From a virus, in the IMG/VR virus record IMGVR_UViG_3300018080_004265, positions 88,376 through 152,375 of that record: 64,000 bases of DNA; one strand, given 5' to 3'. The position numbers and the translations under genes were made by a program. The notes under the pieces are model-generated. The model made no database searches, was not told where the DNA came from, and saw nothing but the letters and a program-made list of their open reading frames with translations. Positions 2,665-64,000 of the stretch are shown here, piece by piece; the stretch's first letter is position 1; the number at the start of each line of letters is the position of its first letter.

Positions 2665-3211
2665 AAATTATACAGCAAAGGATATTCCAGTTTTAAAAGA
2701 ACAAAAAAAAGAAATGAAAAAACAAGCTCAAGAAACGAGGAATAAGATAAGAAAACTTGAAAAGAAAGTAGAAAAACTTGAAGAGAAAGCTGATAGTTTT
2801 GATGAAAAAGCAGAAAAAATACAAAATCTTATAGGGCAATTAAGGATTGGCGAAAGTGATGTAATTGTTGGCGATGTAGTAGCTTATATTGTAAATGATA
2901 AAGTTCGTTATGGTGTTGTTGAAAGTATAGCTTTCGATCCTTACGATAAAAAAATAGAATACAAAGTAGTTAGAATTAAGGTGAATATGGATATTCGCTA
3001 CAATAATAACTCATATGATAATTATGAGAATTTAAATCGTAAGGATTTTAAACGTTATATGACAGCTAGGCAACGCGATGAACATCTGCGAAAAATGGAA
3101 GTTGAGGAACGGGAAAAGAAATTAACTAAGCAGGAAAGAGCTCAAAAGAAATTTGATAATATTAAAGAAGCTAAAGATATGCCAGTTGAAATAAAGGATG
3201 AGGCTATCTAA
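2648..3211 (+). CDS. coiled-coil protein, 187 aa
   Basis: I chose ATG 2648 because GAAGGGAG lies eight bases upstream; an earlier in-frame ATG would overlap the zinc-ribbon gene extensively and lacks a site. Residues about 15-65 form a charged coiled coil (KLEKKVEKLEEKADSF). A beta-rich middle follows (GDVVAYIVNDKVRYGVVES), then a second charged helix. It may be a scaffold or regulator; family unknown. Confidence 0.6.
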   Translation: MKKQSKNYTAKDIPVLKEQKKEMKKQAQETRNKIRKLEKKVEKLEEKADSFDEKAEKIQNLIGQLRIGESDVIVGDVVAYIVNDKVRYGVVESIAFDPYDKKIEYKVVRIKVNMDIRYNNNSYDNYENLNRKDFKRYMTARQRDEHLRKMEVEEREKKLTKQERAQKKFDNIKEAKDMPVEIKDEAI

Positions 3212-3243
3212 AGCCAATATTACAGACACAGGGGGGGTGTGAG

Positions 3244-3387
3244 ATGATCATAATCAGGAGTTTATTAATAGTTTCATTAGCTTGGTTTGTTTACATTATA
3301 TATAAAAAGCCTGTTAAATTAAGTTATCTGATTGCGAGATGGTCGATTGTTGGAATACTGAGTGGATTATTAGTAAGTACATTTTAA
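3244..3387 (+). CDS. small two-helix membrane protein, 47 aa
   Basis: A 47-codon gene after GGGGGGGTGTGAG. Two hydrophobic segments (about residues 2-20 and 28-46) are joined by the short basic loop KKPVKL. Most likely a small inner-membrane protein. Function unknown. Confidence 0.55.
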   Translation: MIIIRSLLIVSLAWFVYIIYKKPVKLSYLIARWSIVGILSGLLVSTF

Positions 3388-3409
3388 GGAGCGGGAAAGG
3401 GGTAAAGTC

Positions 3410-3550
3410 ATGAAAAGTTATACACCAGTTATGATCAAGATCGCAGAAAAGTTAGGAAGAAGTCTGAGTAATATTAGAAAAACAAAGCAATTTGATTATG
3501 TAATGAAATTTGATTTTGTTGATATTAATGTAAAGTACGCACTTAATTAG
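3410..3550 (+). CDS. hypothetical basic protein, 46 aa
   Basis: A 46-codon gene following GAAAGGGG. The first part (MIKIAEKLGRSLSNIRKTKQF) could be a short helix-turn-helix, followed by a beta-like FDFVDINVKYAL tail. Its stop touches the next promoter. Function unknown. Confidence 0.5.
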   Translation: MKSYTPVMIKIAEKLGRSLSNIRKTKQFDYVMKFDFVDINVKYALN

Positions 3551-3579
3551 TTTAAATTTTAATTTTTTTGCAGTATATT
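3551..3579 (+). promoter_or_regulatory. class A promoter
   Basis: TTTAAA (3551-3556), 17-bp spacer, TATATT (3574-3579) preceded by CAG, starting directly after the previous stop codon. Drives the operon from 3598. Confidence 0.75.
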
Positions 3580-3597
3580 AATGAAGAGGTAAAAACA

Positions 3598-3663
3598 ATG
3601 ATTTATGAAGAAAAAGAAATTGATGAATATAATGAAGAAGAATTGAAAGCAATTTTTGGATAA
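3598..3663 (+). CDS. acidic micro-protein, 21 aa
   Basis: First open frame after a class A promoter, with GAAGAGG upstream. The product is 21 residues and strongly acidic (MIYEEKEIDEYNEEELKAIF). It could be a functional micro-protein or only a leader; the ribosome site and promoter favour translation. Confidence 0.4.
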   Translation: MIYEEKEIDEYNEEELKAIFG

Positions 3664-3674
3664 AGGAAAGTAAA

Positions 3675-3932
3675 ATGATAAAAGAAAAATATGAAAAAAT
3701 AACTGGAAAAGAGCTTCCTATAAAATCAAAGATGGAACCATATATTTCTTCAATAAAATTAACTCTTGATCAATTTTATAAAATACATAAAGGATTCACG
3801 GGTTGTGGATGGGGAAGAGTAATAAATTTACCTTGTGATTATTATTGTACAAAAAATGAAAACGAATTAATTGAAGTATATGGTACAAGAAATTTAGGAC
3901 ATAAAACTGATATTTTTTTACTTACAAAATAA
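3675..3932 (+). CDS. hypothetical protein, 85 aa
   Basis: Not recognised. Residues 45-60 contain GCGWGRVINLPCDYYC, with three cysteines that could bind metal or form a small ribbon. GGAAAG precedes the start. It lies between an acidic micro-protein and a widespread phage protein. Confidence 0.6.
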   Translation: MIKEKYEKITGKELPIKSKMEPYISSIKLTLDQFYKIHKGFTGCGWGRVINLPCDYYCTKNENELIEVYGTRNLGHKTDIFLLTK

Positions 3933-3943
3933 AGGAGAGTAAA

Positions 3944-4315
3944 ATGAGTACGCGAGCAAATATAATAATTAAAGATGAATATGAAGAATTAATTTTTTAT
4001 AGACATTCTGATGGATATCCCGAAGGAACAATGCCAACATTAAAGAAATTTCTTAATCTTGTTAAAAGTGGAAAAATAAGAGATGATGCAAGTCAAGCGG
4101 CTGGATGGTTAATAATAATTGGACATGAAGAATATTTAAAAGATTTTAGAGGAGAGACTAAACCATTTGGGACAAAATTATTTAATAGTGAAAATGATAG
4201 ACTTTCTGATTGGAAGGTTGGAGCATATGAACCAACTTCTCAAATTCATGGTGATATTGAATATCTTTATACGGTTGATCTTGAAAAGAAAGAAATAACC
4301 TATAAAAAAGTTTAA
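3944..4315 (+). CDS. conserved phage protein (MSTRANI / YRHSDGYPEG type), 123 aa
   Basis: Matches a pattern I know from many phage genomes: MSTRANIIIKD at the start, then a YRHSDGYPEG segment and an alternating alpha/beta body. Its biochemical role is not known. The gene has AAAGGAGAG and is followed by a tiny acidic ORF. Length is normal for the family and no defect is visible. Confidence 0.7.
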   Translation: MSTRANIIIKDEYEELIFYRHSDGYPEGTMPTLKKFLNLVKSGKIRDDASQAAGWLIIIGHEEYLKDFRGETKPFGTKLFNSENDRLSDWKVGAYEPTSQIHGDIEYLYTVDLEKKEITYKKV

Positions 4316-4328
4316 AGGAGGGATAAAT

Positions 4329-4394
4329 ATGAATGAAGATGTCGAATTACATGATATTGAAATTGAAAGCTTAACCCTATTTGATATTTTATAA
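4329..4394 (+). CDS. acidic micro-protein, 21 aa
   Basis: A 21-codon frame with a near-ideal AAAGGAGGG site. The product is acidic (MNEDVELHDIEIESLTLF). Its TAA is directly followed by the next promoter's -35. The quality of the ribosome site supports translation; function unknown. Confidence 0.4.
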   Translation: MNEDVELHDIEIESLTLFDIL

Positions 4395-4423
4395 TTGTAC
4401 TTTCCCGATAAAAGTGTTATAAT
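4395..4423 (+). promoter_or_regulatory. class B promoter (extended -10)
   Basis: -35 TTGTAC (4395-4400), 17-bp spacer, -10 TATAAT (4418-4423) preceded by TG one base upstream (TGtTATAAT). Same type as the promoters before 9299, 15669 and 57547. Confidence 0.75.
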
Positions 4424-4445
4424 ATCAAGCAAAGGGGGGATGGCA

Positions 4446-4700
4446 ATGAGACTAAACAAAGAGCAGTTGAAGATCATTGAAGAAGATATGTTAGAGATTG
4501 AAGAACCGCCATGTACAAAAGGAGGGAAATGTGAATATTTTGATAAGTGTAGTAATGAGGCTTTAGCATGTTTAAAATTTGTAGCATATGTTGCCAATAA
4601 AAAATTAGAGCAATATAAAATATATCAAAGAAAAGGGGAGGATGTGGTTAGAACACCAACAAGAAAATTATATTTAAAAATGGTTTCAAATGAAGATTAA
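4446..4700 (+). CDS. cysteine-rich hypothetical protein, 84 aa
   Basis: I chose ATG 4446: transcription should start near 4430, and the GGGGGG site is well spaced for 4446 but abuts the ATG at 4440. Cysteines at about 21, 27, 33 and 40 (PPCTKGGKCEYFDKC...LAC) suggest a metal-binding knot. The C-terminal half is basic. Family not recognised. Confidence 0.6.
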   Translation: MRLNKEQLKIIEEDMLEIEEPPCTKGGKCEYFDKCSNEALACLKFVAYVANKKLEQYKIYQRKGEDVVRTPTRKLYLKMVSNED

Positions 4701-54979: not shown

Positions 54980-55054
54980 GGGGGAATGGTGCTAGTGGTA
55001 ACACATTTGACTTGCAATCAAAAGTCTCGGGTTCGATTCCCGGTTCCTCCACCA
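54980..55054 (+). tRNA. tRNA-Ala (TGC)
   Basis: Full cloverleaf. Acceptor GGGGGAA/TTCCTCC includes the G3-U70 pair that marks alanine. Anticodon loop CTTGCAA between TTTGA/TCAAA. Discriminator A and CCA are encoded. First tRNA after the attenuator. Confidence 0.93.
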
Positions 55055-55055
55055 G

Positions 55056-55126
55056 TGGGAGGTCGTCTAACGGCAGGACACGGGGCTTTGAACTCCGGAA
55101 TGATGGTTCGATTCCATCCCTCCCAG
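55056..55126 (+). tRNA. tRNA-Gln (TTG)
   Basis: Acceptor TGGGAGG/CCTCCCA with U1-A72 and discriminator G, as usual for glutamine. Anticodon loop CTTTGAA. CCA is not encoded (G then CAA), so it needs the CCA-adding enzyme. Confidence 0.93.
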
Positions 55127-55140
55127 CAAAGGATAATTTA

Positions 55141-55677
55141 ATGACAAAAGTTATAAATTTATTAGGTGGTTCTAGTGTTGGTAAATCAACAACAAGTTGT
55201 GGGTTGTATTATAATATGAAATTAAAGAAGATCAATGTTGAATTAGTTAGAGAATATGTAAAAATGTGGGCGTGGCTTGGAAGAGAAGTTCATCCTTATG
55301 ATCAAATATATATATCAGGGAAACAGGCTCAATTAGAGTCATCTTTATATAATAAAGTTGATTATATTATAACAGATTCTCCGTTATTATTAGGACCAAT
55401 ATATGAATTATTTTATACAAAGAATTCTATTGTATTACCATCTGTACAAAGACAATTAAATTATGCAAAAGAAAATGCAGTAGAACATATAAATTATGTA
55501 TTAGAAAGACACCAAAAATATTCTCAATTAGGAAGATTTCAAAATGAGGAATCAGCAAAAGCATTTGATAAATTTTTAATAGAATGGTTAAATAATTTAA
55601 ATATTAAATATAAAATATGTAAAGTACCCGACTTAGAAAGAGTCGATTGGATACTAAGTGATTTGAAAATTAAATAA
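55141..55677 (+). CDS. P-loop kinase-like NTPase inside the tRNA cluster
   Basis: A 178-residue protein beginning at ATG 55141; any earlier start would lie inside tRNA genes. Walker A GGSSVGKS sits near residue 9, and YIITDSPLLLG supplies the Walker B/DSP element of NadR- and dNK-like kinases. The place between tRNAs suggests a role in RNA or nucleotide phosphorylation, perhaps 5'-end repair, but the substrate is not shown. Confidence 0.65.
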   Translation: MTKVINLLGGSSVGKSTTSCGLYYNMKLKKINVELVREYVKMWAWLGREVHPYDQIYISGKQAQLESSLYNKVDYIITDSPLLLGPIYELFYTKNSIVLPSVQRQLNYAKENAVEHINYVLERHQKYSQLGRFQNEESAKAFDKFLIEWLNNLNIKYKICKVPDLERVDWILSDLKIK

Positions 55678-55680
55678 TTC

Positions 55681-55960
55681 TCCTGCTCAGTAGATACTAT
55701 GTGTCGCTCGTGCAGGAATCCCCGTTAGCCAATAGGTTAGCGGTGTAAAAAGATGTGGCAGAAGGTATTGCATTTTCTTAACATACTTGGGCCGTGACTG
55801 TCCGTTAAGAAAAGTCCTCGATCATCACGGTGCGATGGAGGTATAAGGTCACTATACAAGTCAACGGACAAGGCTCTGGCGGGTTAAGGCCTACTTAGTG
55901 GTAATAAAGTCCCGATGGGTAGCGAGTGGTTGAAAATCTTGTCAAATCCTTATCATCTTT
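55681..55960 (+). ncRNA. structured RNA of unknown class within tRNA cluster
   Basis: The 285-base gap between the kinase and tRNA-Gly holds no gene but many stems (offset 55000): TCCTGC/GCAGGA 681-686/712-717; CCGTTAGCC/GGTTAGCGG 722-730/735-743; TTTTCTTAAC/GTTAAGAAAA 773-782/804-813; CCTC plus CATC / GATG plus GAGG 816-841; CACTA/TAGTG 850-854/896-900. TGTCCGTT (799-806) can instead pair with AACGGACA (863-870), excluding the third stem, so two folds compete. GC is above the coding background. Confidence 0.6.
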
Positions 55961-55962
55961 AA

Positions 55963-56038
55963 GCGGGATTGGTGTTAATGGCTAGCACGCCTGGCTTCCA
56001 ACCAGGAGGTATCGGTTCGAATCCGATATCCCGCTCCA
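55963..56038 (+). tRNA. tRNA-Gly (TCC)
   Basis: Acceptor GCGGGAT/ATCCCGC, anticodon stem CCTGG/CCAGG with loop CTTCCAA, discriminator U, CCA encoded. Confidence 0.93.
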
Positions 56039-56039
56039 A

Positions 56040-56112
56040 GGGGATGTAGACAAGTGGTCAAGTCATTGCCTTTTCAAGGCGACATTCGCAGGTTCGAATC
56101 CTGTCATCCCTA
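56040..56112 (+). tRNA. tRNA-Glu (TTC)
   Basis: Acceptor GGGGATG/CATCCCT (first pair G-U), anticodon stem TTGCC/GGCGA with loop TTTTCAA. Discriminator A; CCA not encoded. Confidence 0.9.
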
Positions 56113-56115
56113 CAG

Positions 56116-56189
56116 CGGAGTGTAGCTCAATTGGTTAGAGCGTTCGACCGATAATCGAGAGGTAGATGGTTCGACTCCATCCACTCCGA
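56116..56189 (+). tRNA. tRNA-Ile (GAT)
   Basis: Acceptor CGGAGTG/CACTCCG, anticodon stem TTCGA/TCGAG with loop CCGATAA. Discriminator A followed by CCG, so full CCA is not encoded. Confidence 0.9.
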
Positions 56190-56197
56190 CCGAAATA

Positions 56198-56273
56198 GGG
56201 AGTATGGTGTAATTGGTTAATAACATCTTTGGCTCCAAACCAAAGGATTAGAGTTCGAATCTTTATACTCCCG
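56198..56273 (+). tRNA. tRNA-Trp (CCA)
   Basis: Acceptor GGGAGTA/TACTCCC, anticodon stem TTTGG/CCAAA with loop CTCCAAA; discriminator G as in tryptophan tRNAs. CCA absent (GCA). Reads UGG only; no sign of UGA recoding. Confidence 0.93.
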
Positions 56274-56281
56274 CAAAGAAT

Positions 56282-56353
56282 GGTCCCATAGTGTAGTGGT
56301 CAGCACGCCACTCTGTCACAGTGGTAGCACGGGTTCGAGTCCCGTTGGGACCG
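56282..56353 (+). tRNA. tRNA-Asp (GTC)
   Basis: Acceptor GGTCCCA/TGGGACC, anticodon stem CCACT/AGTGG with loop CTGTCAC, discriminator G. CCA absent (GCAT). Confidence 0.93.
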
Positions 56354-56358
56354 CATAG

Positions 56359-56433
56359 AGCTCTGTAGCTCAGTGGAATAAGAGCAGCTCCCTACGAAGG
56401 AGAAGGTCGTAGGTTCGAATCCTATCAGGGCTG
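56359..56433 (+). tRNA. tRNA-Arg (ACG)
   Basis: Acceptor AGCTCTG/CAGGGCT, anticodon stem GCTCC/GGAGA (outer pair mismatched) with loop CTACGAA. ACG normally needs A34 to inosine. CCA absent. Confidence 0.88.
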
Positions 56434-56439
56434 CAAAGA

Positions 56440-56514
56440 GGGTCTGTAGCTCAGTGGTAGAGCGCTAGCTTGAAGCGCTAGGCGTTGGAAGTTCGATTCT
56501 TTCCAGGCCCACCA
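56440..56514 (+). tRNA. tRNA-Phe (GAA)
   Basis: Acceptor GGGTCTG/CAGGCCC. Anticodon stem CTAGC/GCTAG with loop TTGAAGC puts GAA at 34-36. Position 37 is G, unusual for bacterial Phe tRNAs. Discriminator A and CCA are encoded. Confidence 0.8.
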
Positions 56515-56515
56515 A

Positions 56516-56593
56516 GTGGCTGTAGCTCAGTCTGGACAGAGCATCGGCCTTCTAAGCCGAATGTCGCAGGTTCAAATCCTGCCAGCCACGCCA
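56516..56593 (+). tRNA. tRNA-Arg (TCT)
   Basis: Acceptor GTGGCTG/CAGCCAC, anticodon stem TCGGC/GCCGA with loop CTTCTAA, discriminator G, CCA encoded. Serves AGA, the favoured Arg codon in this AT-rich genome. Confidence 0.93.
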
Positions 56594-56594
56594 G

Positions 56595-56666
56595 GGCGGG
56601 GTAGCCAAGTGGTAAGGCAGCGGTCTGCAAAACCGTTCATCGGAGGTTCAAATCCTCTCCCCGCCT
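56595..56666 (+). tRNA. tRNA-Cys (GCA)
   Basis: Acceptor GGCGGGG/CCCCGCC, anticodon stem GCGGT/ACCGT with loop CTGCAAA, discriminator U as in cysteine tRNAs. CCA not encoded. Confidence 0.92.
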
Positions 56667-56671
56667 CATAG

Positions 56672-56747
56672 AGCCCTTTAGCTCAGTTGGGAGAGCGCTT
56701 CCCTTACAAGGAAGATGTCGGCGGTTCAAACCCGTCAAGGGCTACCA
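56672..56747 (+). tRNA. tRNA-Val (TAC)
   Basis: Acceptor AGCCCTT/AAGGGCT, anticodon stem CTTCC/GGAAG with loop CTTACAA, discriminator A, CCA encoded. Last tRNA of the cluster. Confidence 0.93.
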
Positions 56748-56766
56748 AAAAAAGGAGTAAAAAAAA

Positions 56767-57135
56767 ATGAAAGTAATATATGTAGCAGGTAAATATTCAG
56801 GAAAGGGATATTCTGAGATAGAAGATAACATAAAGAGAGCAGAAAAAGCATCTATAAAATTATTTAGAAAAGGATGGGCTGTAATTACCCCACATAAAAA
56901 TACTGCCCATTATGAGATATATGAAGATGAGACTCTTACTTATGAAATGTGGTTAGCTGCAGATATGGAAATGTTAAAAAGAAGCGATGCAATATTTCTT
57001 TTGAATGGATGGCAGAATTCCCACGGAGCAGTGAAAGAACAACAATATGCATTAGGAAATAATATGCCTGTATTTTATGAAGATGAAGGAATTCCCGAAC
57101 CAAACATGATTGAAAAAGAGGTTGTAAAAGTATGA
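56767..57135 (+). CDS. DUF4406 / nucleoside 2-deoxyribosyltransferase-like protein
   Basis: A 122-residue protein: YVAGKYSGKG at the start, EDNIKRAEKASIKLFRKGWA, then MLKRSDAIFLLNGWQNSHG and KEQQYALGNNMPVF, the pattern of DUF4406, a branch of nucleoside 2-deoxyribosyltransferases. It probably binds a nucleoside or nucleotide; its reaction is unknown. Confidence 0.75.
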   Translation: MKVIYVAGKYSGKGYSEIEDNIKRAEKASIKLFRKGWAVITPHKNTAHYEIYEDETLTYEMWLAADMEMLKRSDAIFLLNGWQNSHGAVKEQQYALGNNMPVFYEDEGIPEPNMIEKEVVKV

Positions 57136-57485
57136 AAGCAATAATTGCTGGATCTAGAAGAATATATAAAGATAATACAGTAAATTTTATACAAGAAATT
57201 GTAGATAAATCTGGATTTAATATAGAAATATTAGTATGCGGTATGGCCCATGGTGTTGATATGATGGCACATTTTTGGGCTAGAGAGACTGGTATTCCTA
57301 TTAAAGAATTTCCAGCTGATTGGGATAAATATGGTAAAAGCGCTGGACCTATAAGGAATCAAGAAATGTTAAAATATGCAGATGCATTAATTGCTATTTG
57401 GGATGGAGAGAGTAAGGGAACCAAACATATGATCTCAATAGCAAAAAAGAAAGGTATTAAAGTTTTTATATATGATTATAAATGA
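57132..57485 (+). CDS. YspA/DUF2493 SLOG-fold protein
   Basis: A 117-residue protein with IAGSRRIYKD, VCGMAHGVDMMAHFWARE and GPIRNQEMLKYADALIAIWD, SKGTKHM, the YspA-type SLOG signature. SLOG proteins bind nucleotide-derived ligands. It overlaps the DUF4406 gene, so they may act together. Confidence 0.8.
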   Translation: MKAIIAGSRRIYKDNTVNFIQEIVDKSGFNIEILVCGMAHGVDMMAHFWARETGIPIKEFPADWDKYGKSAGPIRNQEMLKYADALIAIWDGESKGTKHMISIAKKKGIKVFIYDYK

Positions 57486-57493
57486 GAAAAAGT

Positions 57494-57523
57494 ATGTACC
57501 TTTAAAAGAAAAAATGTTATAAT
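57494..57523 (+). promoter_or_regulatory. class B promoter (extended -10)
   Basis: ATGTAC/TGTACC (57494-57500) with a 17-18 bp spacer and TATAAT (57518-57523) preceded by TGt. Drives the operon ending with the second E1-like gene. Confidence 0.72.
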
Positions 57524-57546
57524 ATCCCAATCTACGGAGGTGTTAT

Positions 57547-57792
57547 ATGCCTGTAATAGAAAAAGTTAAAAGAGTTATGAATATTTTAAATTATAAAGGC
57601 CATTCAGAACTTGAATGGGATGCTAATAATGAAATTGAAATTAAAAATATGGAAAAGAAATTTGAAGAAATGATTGATAAAGGTTATACTGCATTTAAAG
57701 TAGATCCTAAAACAAAAGAATCTAAAAAAATCACAAAATTTGATCCATTAGCTGAAGAAATAACAATGACTCCGCCTGCACGAAAGGGGTAA
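57547..57792 (+). CDS. conserved phage protein of a second E1-like locus, 81 aa
   Basis: ILNYKGHSELEWDANNEIEI and AFKVDPKTKESKKITKFDP recall a family I have seen in phage genomes, with a closing FDPLAEEITMTPPARKG. The short extended end with a terminal Gly invites comparison with E1 substrates, but no Gly-Gly is present. First gene after a strong promoter. Function unknown. Confidence 0.55.
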   Translation: MPVIEKVKRVMNILNYKGHSELEWDANNEIEIKNMEKKFEEMIDKGYTAFKVDPKTKESKKITKFDPLAEEITMTPPARKG

Positions 57793-57795
57793 GTA

Positions 57796-58650
57796 ATGGC
57801 AGCTTCAGTTTGTGCCGCTGAAGATAGAGGTACTTATACTCAATTATATTGGGAAGATACAAATACTAATTCTACTGCAAATTGGATTTGTGGGTCAACT
57901 GAAGATTTAACTTCTACTGGAACTTATACTGGCAATACTATGCGTTTTTATTCTACAGGAAGTTCTACTACATGGGCAGGTGTGGATTGGACAGGGGATA
58001 CTACAACATCAGCAACAGGATATATTACTTTTAATACTTATGATTATGATTTACATGATGAACATTATTATGTTTATGCTAATGGGGAATTAATAAAAAC
58101 AAAGAATGAAATTGTTACTGAAGATTCTATTGAGGAGATTATTAAAGAAAAACGTAGACAGAAATGGATACAACAATTAAGAGAAAAACGACTTACCATT
58201 AAACTGCAAAAAGCTGAGAATAGAGGATTAACTTTATTAGAAAGATTAATTGATCAACAACAAGTAAAAAGTTATTTAGAAAAAGGATATATAGATATTA
58301 ATAGTCTTGATAATACAAAAGTTTATAGAATATTTAAAGATGATAGTCAATTTATCAAAGTATACGAGAAAAAACCACAACTTGTTGTATCAAAAAATAT
58401 AAAAGAAGCATTAACTACAGCTCAAAAAATGAAAAAAATGGATGAGTTTGTTCTTAATGGCGAAACATTTATATTAAAAAGAACTGTATGTACCCATCAT
58501 CGAAATCAACAAGAAATACCACAAGTTGATGCAGTTATTTCTAAAATAATTCATTTAAGATCTAATATGCAATTAAAAGATTTTGGAAATGTGTATGAAA
58601 AAGGTGAATTAACTTGTGCTCAAAATGAACCAATAAGGATAGCCGCATAA
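57796..58650 (+). CDS. hypothetical two-part protein, 284 aa
   Basis: Residues 1-85 are Ser/Thr/Gly-rich and beta-like with Trp (TGSSTTWAGVDWTGDTTTSA). After a basic helix (KEKRRQKWIQQLREKR) the rest resembles a phage family with a SYLEKGYIDI, KVYRIFKDDSQF and VCTHHRNQQEIPQVDAVISK layout. It may be a virion or DNA-associated protein. I cannot name it. Confidence 0.5.
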   Translation: MAASVCAAEDRGTYTQLYWEDTNTNSTANWICGSTEDLTSTGTYTGNTMRFYSTGSSTTWAGVDWTGDTTTSATGYITFNTYDYDLHDEHYYVYANGELIKTKNEIVTEDSIEEIIKEKRRQKWIQQLREKRLTIKLQKAENRGLTLLERLIDQQQVKSYLEKGYIDINSLDNTKVYRIFKDDSQFIKVYEKKPQLVVSKNIKEALTTAQKMKKMDEFVLNGETFILKRTVCTHHRNQQEIPQVDAVISKIIHLRSNMQLKDFGNVYEKGELTCAQNEPIRIAA

Positions 58651-59108
58651 TGATAGCAACTACTGATGATAGGTTATATATAAGGGGTGGAGAAGGACAA
58701 TTATATGTTAATGCAAATCCAGTTTCTATAAAAAAAGATTCAATTACAGGAGATCAACATTTAAGATTCCCTAAAATATGCGCTAATTTTAATAAAGAAG
58801 TAAATTTAAAATCTTTGAGTAATTTTATAGAACAATTTAGACATATTGTAAATAAAGAATTTAATAGAATACAGGGATTTAAAGATTTTTATTTTATTTT
58901 AAAAGAAGATTTATTTCATAAAGTTGTTGATGAACATCATGAAAAAAATAAAGCAATGATAATTAATCAATTTAGAATATGTGATGTTAATATAAAAGAA
59001 GGAAAACAAGATCAACAATATGATATTATGACAGACAATACAACTTATTATTGGATTAATTTATTAAGGAAAACAGAAGATGAAATTCAAAATAGGCGAG
59101 AAAGTTAG
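58650..59108 (+). CDS. hypothetical protein, 152 aa
   Basis: Starts on the previous stop. Begins MIATTDDRLYIRGGEGQLYV, then a helical part (LSNFIEQFRHIVNKEFNRI). No motif recognised. Member of the operon leading to the second E1-like gene. Confidence 0.5.
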   Translation: MIATTDDRLYIRGGEGQLYVNANPVSIKKDSITGDQHLRFPKICANFNKEVNLKSLSNFIEQFRHIVNKEFNRIQGFKDFYFILKEDLFHKVVDEHHEKNKAMIINQFRICDVNIKEGKQDQQYDIMTDNTTYYWINLLRKTEDEIQNRRES

Positions 59109-59526
59109 AACTCGCTGGGATTTTAAATATGGTGGGTGTGATGGAGTTGTATTAGATTATAATTCTAAAGGACGTTATTTAATAGAATTTGATCATGATA
59201 TTGGTAGTCATGATTTATATGGAAAAGGTAAAAAAGGCCATTGTTATATGATTGATGAGAAATATTTATATAATTGTTCATGTAAAACATGTAAAGTAAA
59301 TTTAAAAGAAAAGAAAGGAGGAGTAAAGATGAGTGTATTTGATTTTCTATTGTCTCCAGATGATAAGTTGATTCGTGAAAAAGCAACAGACGATTGTGGT
59401 AATTTGGATCTGAATAACGTCCATGTACAGCAAGCTATTTTGTTGACAATTAAACCTCAACTTATTAAATTATTACGAGATAAAAAGGCTGATGAAAAAG
59501 CTAAGAAGAAAAAAAAGAAGAAGTAA
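59080..59526 (+). CDS. hypothetical protein with internal start, 148 aa
   Basis: Residues 1-75 are a beta-rich domain (GEKVRTRWDFKYGGCDGVVL, CSCKTCK). A strong AAGGAGGAG site sits before in-frame ATG 59329 (residue 84), so a 65-residue form (starting MSVFDFLLSPDDKL, ending in seven lysines) is likely also made. The two parts may have been separate genes that fused. Function unknown. Confidence 0.55.
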   Translation: MKFKIGEKVRTRWDFKYGGCDGVVLDYNSKGRYLIEFDHDIGSHDLYGKGKKGHCYMIDEKYLYNCSCKTCKVNLKEKKGGVKMSVFDFLLSPDDKLIREKATDDCGNLDLNNVHVQQAILLTIKPQLIKLLRDKKADEKAKKKKKKK

Positions 59527-59528
59527 TA

Positions 59529-60257
59529 ATGAAAAGATTTGATCAAAATCTTAAAACAAAGTTGATCGGCAATAAAGGACAACTTAAGCTAAATAAGGCC
59601 AAAGTTTGTTTAGTTGGTCTAGGCGGCACAGGTTGTCCTATTTTTGTCTATTTACATAATGCTGGTGTAGAAAATATTTGTTCAGTCGATGATGATAGGG
59701 TTGAAGAATCAAATTTAAATAGACAGTTTATATATAATGAAGATGATGTTGGGAATAAAAAAGTAGATGTTATTCTTGAAAAATATGGTCATAATATGAA
59801 ATTCGATGGAAAATCTATGAAAGGACAAATAAGCGTAGTTGAAAATAGTTTTCAAGGATGGTTAGAATTTTTAAAAAAACATGATGAAAATCCTCCAAAA
59901 TTTGATTTAATAATAGAAGCAACTGATAACTTTGAGACAAAAAAAGCGGTGCAAGAATTTGCTTTCAAACAAAGTATTCCATGTTTAATATGTGGAGTTC
60001 ATGGCTATCAAATAAATATGTTTGCATGGCATCCTAAATATTCTAAAAATAGATATGCAGATTTAATTAATTGTGATGACAATATATCTGAAAAATCAGA
60101 AGGAACATTTCCTACAGCTACTGGAATACTTGGAACTCTTGTTGCAAATGAAGCCATAAAAATATTATTAGAATTACATGAGAAAGTAATTTATAATAGA
60201 ATATGGTTTTATGATATTCTTCATAATCAATTAAAAGATCTTAAAATTTCAGTTTAA
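59529..60257 (+). CDS. second E1-like (ThiF/MoeB) activating enzyme
   Basis: A 242-residue Rossmann protein with textbook E1 motifs: VGLGGTGCPIFVYL, SVDDDRVEESNLNRQFIY, DLIIEATDNFETK and the closing GTFPTATGILGTLVANEAIK. It lacks zinc CxxC pairs. It is not closely like the E1 at 50335, whose NLNRQ motif has diverged. Its partner is unknown; small upstream proteins are candidates. The last bases carry a promoter. Confidence 0.85.
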   Translation: MKRFDQNLKTKLIGNKGQLKLNKAKVCLVGLGGTGCPIFVYLHNAGVENICSVDDDRVEESNLNRQFIYNEDDVGNKKVDVILEKYGHNMKFDGKSMKGQISVVENSFQGWLEFLKKHDENPPKFDLIIEATDNFETKKAVQEFAFKQSIPCLICGVHGYQINMFAWHPKYSKNRYADLINCDDNISEKSEGTFPTATGILGTLVANEAIKILLELHEKVIYNRIWFYDILHNQLKDLKISV

Positions 60258-60281
60258 AAATTTAAGGAAATACAGTATAAT
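60253..60281 (+). promoter_or_regulatory. class A promoter giving a leaderless mRNA
   Basis: TTTAAA (60253-60258), 17-bp spacer, TATAAT (60276-60281) preceded by ACAG, overlapping the E1 gene's stop. Transcription should start about 60288, the A of the next ATG, so the message would have no leader. Confidence 0.75.
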
Positions 60282-60287
60282 ATAACA

Positions 60288-61598
60288 ATGATAAGAGATA
60301 TATTAAAACATGAATTTACTGAGGTTTACCAGGTCGGCGGATCTGTAAGAGATACTTTATTAAAAAAGTCTCCTAAAGATATTGACTTTATTGTTGTTGG
60401 AGATAAGTATGATAATATAGTTAATAAACTATCTAAACATGGCAAATGTGATATAGTGGGCAAATCATTTGGAGTTGTTAAATTCCAATATAAAGATGAA
60501 ATATACGATATTACAATTCCCAGAAAAGAAAGAAGTACCGGTAATGGACATTGTGATTTTTCAATTGAAACTGAAAATGTTACTTTATTAGAAGATCTGC
60601 AAAGAAGAGATTTTACAATTAATGCCATATTAATGACATTAGATGGGAAGGTTGTAGATCCCTTAAAAGGGACACAAGATTTATCGCAGCGATTAATTAA
60701 ACCAGTCTTTGATAATTGCTTTAATGAAGACCCATTAAGAATGTTAAGGGCTATACGATTTGCATGTCAATTGAATTTTGAATTAGATGAATATACAATA
60801 GAAAAAATACGAGAAAATGCTTCTCTTATAAACACTGTGTCAGTTGAAAGGATAAGAGAAGAATTAAATAAGATTTTATTATCCGACACGCCAGATGATG
60901 GGGTCTGGCTGTTGGATGAATTAGATTTATTAAAATATATACTTCCAGAATTAGAGAAATTAATTCGCATAGAACAAAATAAAAAATACCATATTTATAA
61001 TGCTTTCAATCATACTTTATCTGCATTAAGATATTGTGAAAGTAAAGACTTAGATGTAAGATTAGCTGTATTATTACATGATATTGGTAAAGCAAAAACA
61101 AAAACTATTGGTGATGATGGTGAAATTCATTTTTATAATCATGAAGAAGTTGGAGTTGATATAGCTAAAGATATAATGAAACGATTAAAATATTCAAATG
61201 AAACAATTAATCTTGTTTGTATACTTATAAGAGAACACATGTTTGATCTTTTTTCTAAAGAACGAGCAATGAAAAGATTAATAGCTCGCGTTGGAAAAGA
61301 AAATATTTGGAAATTATATGATCTTCGAATTGCAGATAGAAAAGCTGCCGGAAGAGAAGATATTAGTATGGAAAAAGTAGAAAGAAGTAAACAATTAGTA
61401 AGAGATATTTTTGAAAAAGAAAACGCTTTTAAAGTTACAGATTTAAAAATAGATGGGCATGATGTAATGACTGAATTAGAAGTTGGTCCAGGTCGCCACA
61501 TAGGGGATATATTAAGATCTATATTTGAAGAAGTATTAGATGAAAAAATAGAAAATAATAGAGAAGTTTTAATGCAAAGAATAAAAGAATTTGCATAA
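60288..61598 (+). CDS. cca: CCA-adding tRNA nucleotidyltransferase
   Basis: A 436-residue class II enzyme. QVGGSVRDTLL and KDIDFIVVG form the catalytic head; RRDFTINAI, DPLKGTQDL and EDPLRMLRAIRFACQL follow; an HD domain (LAVLLHDIGKAK, HEEVGVD) sits behind, as in bacterial CCA enzymes with 2'-phosphodiesterase/phosphatase activity. It finishes tRNAs lacking CCA, as seven of the twelve phage tRNAs do. Predicted leaderless start at ATG 60288. Confidence 0.92.
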   Translation: MIRDILKHEFTEVYQVGGSVRDTLLKKSPKDIDFIVVGDKYDNIVNKLSKHGKCDIVGKSFGVVKFQYKDEIYDITIPRKERSTGNGHCDFSIETENVTLLEDLQRRDFTINAILMTLDGKVVDPLKGTQDLSQRLIKPVFDNCFNEDPLRMLRAIRFACQLNFELDEYTIEKIRENASLINTVSVERIREELNKILLSDTPDDGVWLLDELDLLKYILPELEKLIRIEQNKKYHIYNAFNHTLSALRYCESKDLDVRLAVLLHDIGKAKTKTIGDDGEIHFYNHEEVGVDIAKDIMKRLKYSNETINLVCILIREHMFDLFSKERAMKRLIARVGKENIWKLYDLRIADRKAAGREDISMEKVERSKQLVRDIFEKENAFKVTDLKIDGHDVMTELEVGPGRHIGDILRSIFEEVLDEKIENNREVLMQRIKEFA

Positions 61599-62391: not shown

Positions 62392-62790
62392 ATGAAACAT
62401 TTTGAAACAAATAAATTACATATAAAAAGTTGGTGTAACGAACCAGAAGAAGGGGCATTAAAACAAGCTGAGAATTTAGCTCAATTGCCATTTGCTTTTC
62501 ATCATATTGCTTTAATGCCTGACACCCATCAAGGATATGGTATGCCAATTGGTGGAGTATTAGCTACAGAAGGAGTAGTTGTTCCAAATGCTGTAGGGGT
62601 AGATATTTTTTGTTCAGTTAGTGCATTAAAAACAAACATAAAAGCATCAGATTTATCTGTGGAAAAATTAAAAGAAATAATGGGAGAAATAAGAAAGCAA
62701 GTTCCTTTTGGTGAAGGTAATTACCCAGAGTATGATAAAGAAATTGGAGAATATTTAGAAAATTTAGAAAAAGAGATGAATAATGAGTAA
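62392..62790 (+). CDS. rtcB: RtcB RNA ligase, N-terminal half
   Basis: A 132-residue fragment with FHHIALMPDTHQGYGMPIGG and VVVPNAVGVDIFCSVSA, the metal-binding and catalytic-cysteine region (GVDIxC) of RtcB, which joins RNA 3'-phosphate or 2',3'-cyclic phosphate ends to 5'-OH ends. It stops after EKEMNNE where a homing endonuclease begins. The remainder starts at 63535 in the same reading frame. Confidence 0.85.
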   Translation: MKHFETNKLHIKSWCNEPEEGALKQAENLAQLPFAFHHIALMPDTHQGYGMPIGGVLATEGVVVPNAVGVDIFCSVSALKTNIKASDLSVEKLKEIMGEIRKQVPFGEGNYPEYDKEIGEYLENLEKEMNNE

Positions 62791-63538
62791 ATATAAATTA
62801 AATAAAAGATGTATAAAATGTAATAAATTACTTTTAGATAAAAATAAAAGTGGCTTTTGTAATTCTCATAGAGATAGAACTGGATCAAATAATTCATTTT
62901 TCGGGAAACATCATTCAAAAGAAACAATTGATGGAATAAAGGCAAAGAATCGTAAAAAAAGTAAAGAAAATTGGAAAAAAAAAGAATATAGAGATAAAGT
63001 TATAAAAGGCACATCTAAACCAAGAAAAGAATCTTTTAAGAAAGAACAAAGCGATAGAATAAAATTGTGGTACAAAGATAATCCAAAACAAAAAGATATT
63101 CGTTCAATACATATGAAAAAGTCTTGGAAAAATGGATTAATTCCTAAAAGTAAACACACACAAATGAATAAAAGTAAAATACAAAATGAATTTTTTAATG
63201 ACATTAAAGATATTTATCCATTTGTTAGTGATAATACAACAATAAAATACGACAGTAAATGGTTATTCCCAGATATTTCTATTATTAAAGATGGAATTAT
63301 TGTAGAGTTTTTAGGTGACTATTGGCATGCAAATCCAAATAAATATAAAGAAAATGATATTGTTCATCACGAACTAACAGCATTGGAAATTTGGAAAAAT
63401 GATGAAAGAAGAAAATCAACTTTTGAGAGACTTGGGTTTTTTGTTTATACTGTTTGGGAAAGTGATTATAAGAAAGACAAAAGGCATGTATTGAATACAT
63501 TTGATTCAATTTTAAATTGGGAAGGATGTTCTATATGA
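62783..63538 (+). CDS. homing endonuclease inserted in rtcB
   Basis: A 251-residue endonuclease. A short zinc-like RCIKCNKLLL region and HNSxxGKHHSKETIDGIKAK-type NUMOD3 repeats precede a nuclease core with KWLFPDISIIKDGIIVEFLG (PD...ExxG) and GFFVYTVWESDY, resembling Vsr-like endonucleases. It overlaps the two rtcB halves at both ends (8 and 4 bases). Direct repeats ATGAAT (62776 and 63535) flank it. Confidence 0.82.
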   Translation: MSKYKLNKRCIKCNKLLLDKNKSGFCNSHRDRTGSNNSFFGKHHSKETIDGIKAKNRKKSKENWKKKEYRDKVIKGTSKPRKESFKKEQSDRIKLWYKDNPKQKDIRSIHMKKSWKNGLIPKSKHTQMNKSKIQNEFFNDIKDIYPFVSDNTTIKYDSKWLFPDISIIKDGIIVEFLGDYWHANPNKYKENDIVHHELTALEIWKNDERRKSTFERLGFFVYTVWESDYKKDKRHVLNTFDSILNWEGCSI

Positions 63539-64000
63539 ATTATCAAAAAATGAAAGACTGGATTATGTCTGATGAATTTAAAGAATTATACAAAAAATTT
63601 AATCCAGAACTGAGAAAGTTTATTAGACATCAATTTAGTAGATTGCCTAGTGGTGGCGGAGGGAACCACTTTTCCGAGATACAAAAAGACAAAGAAGGGA
63701 ATATTTGGGTTATGTTACATTTTGGGAGTAGAAATCTAGGTCAACAATTCGGAAAATATTATAATAAATTAGCTAAAGACTTAAATAATAAGTGGTTTTC
63801 AAGTGTTCCAAAAGAGTATGACTTGGCTTTTTTACCAATAGATACTAAAGAAGCACAAGAATATCTCTCTGCCTTAGAAATATGTAAACAATATGCTAAG
63901 TATAATCACTTAATTGCTATGGATAAAATTAAAGAGATTTTTAAACAAAGAACAAATTGCTCTTTTTTAGAGTATTATTATGTCCCACACAATTATGCAA
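63535..64000 (+). CDS. rtcB: RtcB RNA ligase, C-terminal half (runs off the window)
   Basis: Begins MNYQKMKDWIM and continues RLPSGGGGNHFSEIQ, VMLHFGSRNLGQQ, AQEYLSALEICKQYAKYNH: the GGGNHF and HxGSR metal sites and the following helix of RtcB. It is in the same frame as the N-terminal half and coupled to the endonuclease stop by ATGA. The GMP-binding histidine region lies beyond the window. Confidence 0.85.
   Translation, partial: MNYQKMKDWIMSDEFKELYKKFNPELRKFIRHQFSRLPSGGGGNHFSEIQKDKEGNIWVMLHFGSRNLGQQFGKYYNKLAKDLNNKWFSSVPKEYDLAFLPIDTKEAQEYLSALEICKQYAKYNHLIAMDKIKEIFKQRTNCSFLEYYYVPHNYA

Follow-up and report, generated by a model that had tools for sequence, protein, structure and literature searches.

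The division of genes into pieces by free-standing homing endonucleases is a kind of arrangement that is already known. Its published precedent is the split nrdA gene of Aeromonas phage Aeh1 with mobE (PMC2988022; PMC3653736), which is arranged as nrdA-a / mobE / nrdA-b and whose NrdA product was found to be active in two pieces (PMC2988022). The mobE gene is located beside nrdA in T4 and inside nrdA in Aeh1, overlaps of starts and stops are known for the free-standing endonucleases of T4, and translational coupling has been suggested for mobE (PMC2988022). In phage 25 the 43A and 43B products were found to co-purify and to be active, and the endonuclease may have entered a gene 43 that was already split (PMC2988022).

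The viral rtcB locus described here resembles that of Aeh1 in that the gene of an enzyme is broken into two cistrons by a free-standing homing endonuclease, with neither an intron nor an intein, in that relatives of the endonuclease occur beside the intact gene in other phages, and in that the location inside or directly upstream of rtcB mirrors that of mobE in Aeh1 and T4. It differs in the enzyme (RtcB instead of NrdA) and in the nuclease (Vsr/EDxHD instead of HNH). Activity in two pieces was shown for NrdA whereas it is proposed for RtcB, and the rtcB gene is split in two divergent viruses. The T4 39/60 genes with mobA and the 43A/43B genes of Aeromonas phage 25 with seg likewise contain a two-chain enzyme adjoining a free-standing endonuclease, whereas the enzymes are others (the topoisomerase in T4, the gene 43 product in phage 25) and the nucleases are of the HNH (mobA) and GIY-YIG (seg) types.

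Fractured genes with split inteins share with the present locus the nuclease fold and the position of the endonuclease between the gene halves. Dassa et al. 2009 reportedly described such fractured genes, with split inteins and a Vsr-like free-standing endonuclease between the halves. The arrangement is cited in PMC10448857 and PMC12350094. No earlier report of a split rtcB was found among open-licence papers, and what appears to be new within that literature is rtcB as the divided gene, its pairing with a Vsr/EDxHD endonuclease in the absence of inteins, and a split that is conserved in two viruses.

The divided rtcB gene of the window

The window, that is the whole stretch of 64,000 nucleotides that was analysed, represents the last 64 kb of a viral record of 152,375 bases. 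The N-part of rtcB (62392..62790, plus strand) was found to encode 132 amino acids matching positions 1-86 of the Pfam RtcB model (99.4 bits, E 4e-28), and contained the DxxC metal/Cys motif as VDIFC and the tail EKEMNNE*. The C-part (63535..64000, plus strand) matched positions 138-283 of the model (98.5 bits, E 7e-28) and contained the GGGGNHF and HFGSR motifs and the PHN histidine; 155 amino acids of it are visible (63535-63999) before the contig end cuts it, and since the window ends there, the final approximately 125 RtcB residues lie out of view. Both parts scored above the Pfam cut-off for RtcB (PF01139). They share one frame at a distance of 759 bp, across which the rtcB frame contains 43 stops, and no read-through frame was found between the two halves. 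The separate N-terminal and C-terminal frames with their respective motifs, the common frame at 759 bp and the NUMOD3/Vsr-like endonuclease between the halves had all been proposed in the preliminary description and were borne out by the Pfam matches, the coordinates and the structural model. A second rtcB was found neither in the record of the window nor in that of the second virus described below, both of which are fragments. Upstream of rtcB (54980-61598), 12 clustered tRNA genes were observed together with a gene for a CCA-adding enzyme, and the region of the tRNA cluster also contained a ThiF/E1-type-like protein (59529-60257).

The gene between the halves (62783..63538, plus strand) encodes a free-standing homing endonuclease of 251 amino acids with a zinc finger, a NUMOD3 and a Vsr/EDxHD-type nuclease domain. 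The NUMOD3 scored over the curated Pfam cut-off, the zinc finger/NUMOD region resembled the DNA-binding domain of I-TevI (profile E 6e-6), and D164, E175 and H182 were found among the conserved columns of the nuclease domain. The fold was predicted with a mean pLDDT of 84.8. The C-terminal domain of the model matched Vsr (1cw0, Z 11.7) as the best structural match and the catalytic domain of I-Bth0305I (3r3p, Z 10.6) among the best, with alignments covering 96-114 residues. Foldseek alone again ranked the Vsr and I-Bth0305I families at the top, but with weak scores (best E 0.012). By its predicted fold and its DNA-binding modules the protein is an EDxHD/Vsr-like homing endonuclease.

A second split rtcB and the junctions of the insert

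When IMG/VR was scanned with aligned sequences of the endonuclease and its relatives, a separate viral contig of 98 kb (L101) with an identical arrangement was identified. It was found to contain an rtcB N-part (2583-2999, 138 aa) with the same EKEMNNE* tail, followed by an endonuclease (2992-3738) with the same 8-nt overlap with the N-part and by a complete C-part (3735-4583, 282 aa) with a TTG start on the TGA of the endonuclease. Both rtcB parts scored above the Pfam RtcB cut-off. Between the window and L101 the rtcB halves were each about 52% identical and the endonucleases 46%. In a phylogeny that comprised 84 RtcBs the two split proteins grouped together with an SH-aLRT of 99, and their clade branched from within the intact viral sequences; given this identity and the supported clade, the split is probably older than the divergence of the two viruses. 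The shared tail and overlap make a single insertion before the lineages parted the simplest reading, and that an independent contig contains the same split speaks against a chimeric assembly of the window. No close relatives of the C-part were found in IMG/VR with the window sequence alone as query, a search with the two split sequences recovered only L101 and three more distant rtcBs, and the clade-specific pattern HFGSRNLG also matched only L101. In L101, tRNA genes were observed upstream and another RNA ligase downstream of the split rtcB.

At the 5′ junction of the window the endonuclease starts 8 nt ahead of the end of the N-part (ATGAGTAA). A 22-bp stretch covering the end of the N-part and the start region of the endonuclease (TAGAAAAAGAGATGAATAATGA; 62765..62786, plus strand) was found to be identical in L101 and was the longest identical run between the two viruses in codon alignments. 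At the 3′ junction the endonuclease stop (TGA) and the C-part start (ATG) share bases, as ATGA. A possible ribosome-binding site for the C-part (GGGAAGGA; 63519..63526, plus strand) was found within the final endonuclease codons, 8 nt before the C-part ATG, with an anti-Shine-Dalgarno energy of -6.4 kcal/mol. Judged against the ATGs of the window (median -1.8 kcal/mol, 5% quantile -7.8), this candidate site is stronger than most without being exceptional. The C-terminus of the endonuclease was observed to be conserved as NWE[S/G]C[S/T][I/F] (window 63517-63538; L101:3717-3738; L003:5732-5753; L102:3754-3774) though disordered in the model (pLDDT about 32), and the DNA TGGGAGAGTTGT at the 3′ end was identical in L101, L003 and L102. 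This 3′ end may perhaps have been retained as the ribosome-binding site of the next gene; the start of the next gene in L102 was observed about 33 bp further downstream of it.

The repeats ATGAAT had been noted at the flanks of the insert; they are indeed present, but they are attributed to chance and were rejected as a target-site duplication, since an equally long word was shared in 931 of 1000 cases when the flanks of 50 bp each were shuffled. In the window the word is met on average every 653 bp, and the sister gene in L101 contained no ATGAAT on the 3′ side of the insert.

The common frame of the rtcB halves in both viruses is what would be expected if the insert were removed at the RNA level as an intron, or bypassed by the ribosome, to give one RtcB chain. 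This is very improbable. The absence of intron and intein sequences, as first described from the window, held in Rfam and Pfam searches of the window and L101: Rfam gave no intron match to the window even with E values of up to 5, and none to L101 at the gathering score. The endonuclease ORF fills 756 bases of the 759-bp insert and therefore leaves no room for a ribozyme core, and the C-part contains its own start and a possible ribosome-binding site. That the halves are joined as protein by split inteins, as in a fractured gene, is of negligible probability. Members of the same endonuclease superfamily were indeed observed between ORFs resembling split-intein halves in two other loci (L008:3129-6984, with a terminase-like gene, and L009:3498-5739), a layout that corresponds to the fractured-gene arrangement. 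Against this, the rtcB N-part reaches its stop within a few codons of entering the loop and has no intein segment, the C-part opens directly with RtcB sequence, and no intein domain was found in the window or in L101. Since no split intein is located at the rtcB halves, the two chains could not be joined by protein splicing, unlike those of fractured genes.

Position of the break and the endonuclease lineage

The break was found in the loop that separates the VPxGF motif from the LGTLGGGNHF motif. This loop is free to vary in both length and sequence among 72 distinct intact viral RtcBs, which represent intact relatives without an endonuclease inside the gene. Because of this variation the insertion can be assigned to the loop and not to an exact base. 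The uninterrupted EMNYQKM-like junction suggested earlier for intact relatives was absent from all of the 72. When an intact relative was modelled (mean pLDDT 91.7), the structure matched that of the Pyrococcus enzyme with Z 41, and the loop was among the regions of lowest confidence, with block means of 74 and 84.

The rtcB genes of the phages PS119XW (L193:762-2966) and Lederberg (L194:753-2864) were observed to contain an in-frame intein-like insert at the catalytic cysteine (DIG^C), and their records annotate the genes merely as RNA ligase. Pfam named no intein domain in the two inserts; their Cys start and GN|C end support a reading as putative inteins. They are alike to the present case in that rtcB is interrupted by a selfish element, and differ in that their frame is continuous at DIG^C whereas the insert of the window is a separate frame in a variable loop. 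A spliceable element can occupy the most conserved motif, and the unspliced insert of the window is located where a break may be tolerable. The Pyrococcus RtcB PH1602 is titled extein protein in 1uc2. A sample of 60 from 651 annotated phage records, taken without the aim of a census, contained two rtcBs with large inserts (H138 and H143), both in continuous frames, and no endonuclease-split rtcB. In Mycobacterium phage Rando14 (L195:459-2000) the annotated rtcB was observed to leave the RtcB frame in its last third, and the unrelated-looking tail would correspond to a frameshift or a sequencing error.

Five close relatives of the endonuclease were found outside the window (L101, L185, L003, L102 and L184). 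Those of L003 and L102 are located directly upstream of intact rtcBs, in L003 with an ATGA overlap, and that of L184 is located between two genes resembling recombination-nuclease genes. In L185 (2194-4698), a phage-like contig of a Treponema MAG, an rtcB of another kind contained an endonuclease of 36% identity between its parts, again in the loop region, and its C-part was thrown out of frame at GGG|NH by an insertion of 5 nt behind GGTGG; this C-part may be broken, or the shift may be an assembly error. The endonuclease was inside or directly upstream of rtcB in four of the five close relatives and in 0 of 86 other family loci (Fisher p 2e-6, with some near-duplicate contigs among the 86), and no rtcB was found nearby in those 86. 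The branching order of the endonuclease tree gave no reading on movement of the insert between sites.

Two other rtcB loci were observed to be irregular. In L071 (2280-4167) a small HNH-like ORF, for which no Pfam match was found, separates a complete rtcB from a 5′ rtcB fragment of 53 aa, a layout that would be consistent with invasion of rtcB by another endonuclease and later restoration of an intact copy next to it. In L181 (3699-4726) rtcB begins at GGNHF and overlaps the end of an unrelated gene, and no N-part was found in the 95-kb record.

State of the halves and the two-chain reading

The chance of the open frames arising from base composition was 3e-6 for the N-part and 3e-7 for the C-part of the window, and 2e-5 and 2e-11, respectively, for those of L101. 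Between the two viruses pN/pS was 0.33/0.64 in the N-part and 0.31/0.73 in the C-part, with synonymous sites near saturation. The equivalents of Pyrococcus D95, C98, N202, H203, H234 and H329 were present in both split proteins, followed in L101 by those of H404 and K480, sites that in the window lie beyond the contig end. Departures from near-invariant columns amounted to about 17% in both split proteins, with a mean of 2.8% in the intact ones and 16% in the truncated intact protein of L003. Eight departures were found at the same column in both split proteins. The residue after C98 was changed from G to S in both, with G in 72/72 intact proteins, and the residue after H234 from S to F, with S in 70/72. 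The split RtcB is thus altered in its sequence, yet unchanged in its catalytic residues, and both halves have probably stayed open and under constraint since the split.

Relaxed constraint is another possible cause of the high rate of departures at conserved columns, as would apply if the insertion had inactivated rtcB and left halves that decay as passengers of the endonuclease. Decay seems to have happened in the third split rtcB, that of L185 with its frameshift, and L181 contains a truncated remnant. However, two lineages that are about half identical have kept open frames and all visible catalytic residues, and departures that coincide at eight columns are unlike random decay, so that decay is regarded as unlikely, while being the least improbable of the alternatives. 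The two substitutions beside the cysteine and the histidine, common to both split proteins, would also suit chains that fold together with a changed function, either on another substrate or in binding RNA without ligation. This is considered improbable: all catalytic residues remain, and tRNA genes, a CCA-adding enzyme or another RNA ligase are located nearby in both viruses, as in ordinary RNA repair.

The preferred reading, to which a probability of about 0.7 is given, places the locus with nrdA/mobE of Aeh1, as a split gene whose two chains would arise by coupled initiation and assemble into a ligase. A gene for a free-standing Vsr/EDxHD-type homing endonuclease would have entered a phage rtcB at the loop of variable length and remained in place. 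Three overlapping cistrons would be translated from the message by coupled or independent initiation: RtcB-N terminates shortly after the endonuclease start, RtcB-C begins at the endonuclease stop (ATGA), and the last endonuclease codons would provide a ribosome-binding site for RtcB-C. RtcB-N would contribute the Mn/Cys segment and RtcB-C the Asn-His, the metal and guanylate histidines and the Lys. The conservation of the halves and their retained residues suggest that the two chains may assemble without a peptide bond into an RNA 3′-phosphate/5′-OH ligase, which would serve tRNA repair, and the endonuclease would home to rtcB genes that lack it.

Under this two-chain reading an RNA-repair enzyme would join the short list of enzymes split by a selfish endonuclease without splicing, and the complete halves of L101 make the two-chain hypothesis directly testable. 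The break site shows where RtcB may tolerate interruption and would help in the design of split or switchable RtcB. The persistence of the split in two divergent viruses is unusual evidence, and one endonuclease lineage is found to be tied to rtcB, either within it or immediately before an uninterrupted copy. A stronger proposal is offered tentatively, with clearly less confidence, namely that RtcB ligases made of two chains by nature may form a stable lineage in these viruses, that residues next to the active-site Cys and His are altered in them, and that the 3′ end of the endonuclease has come to act as the translation signal of the second chain. If true, a selfish gene would have become locked into the expression of a two-chain RtcB.
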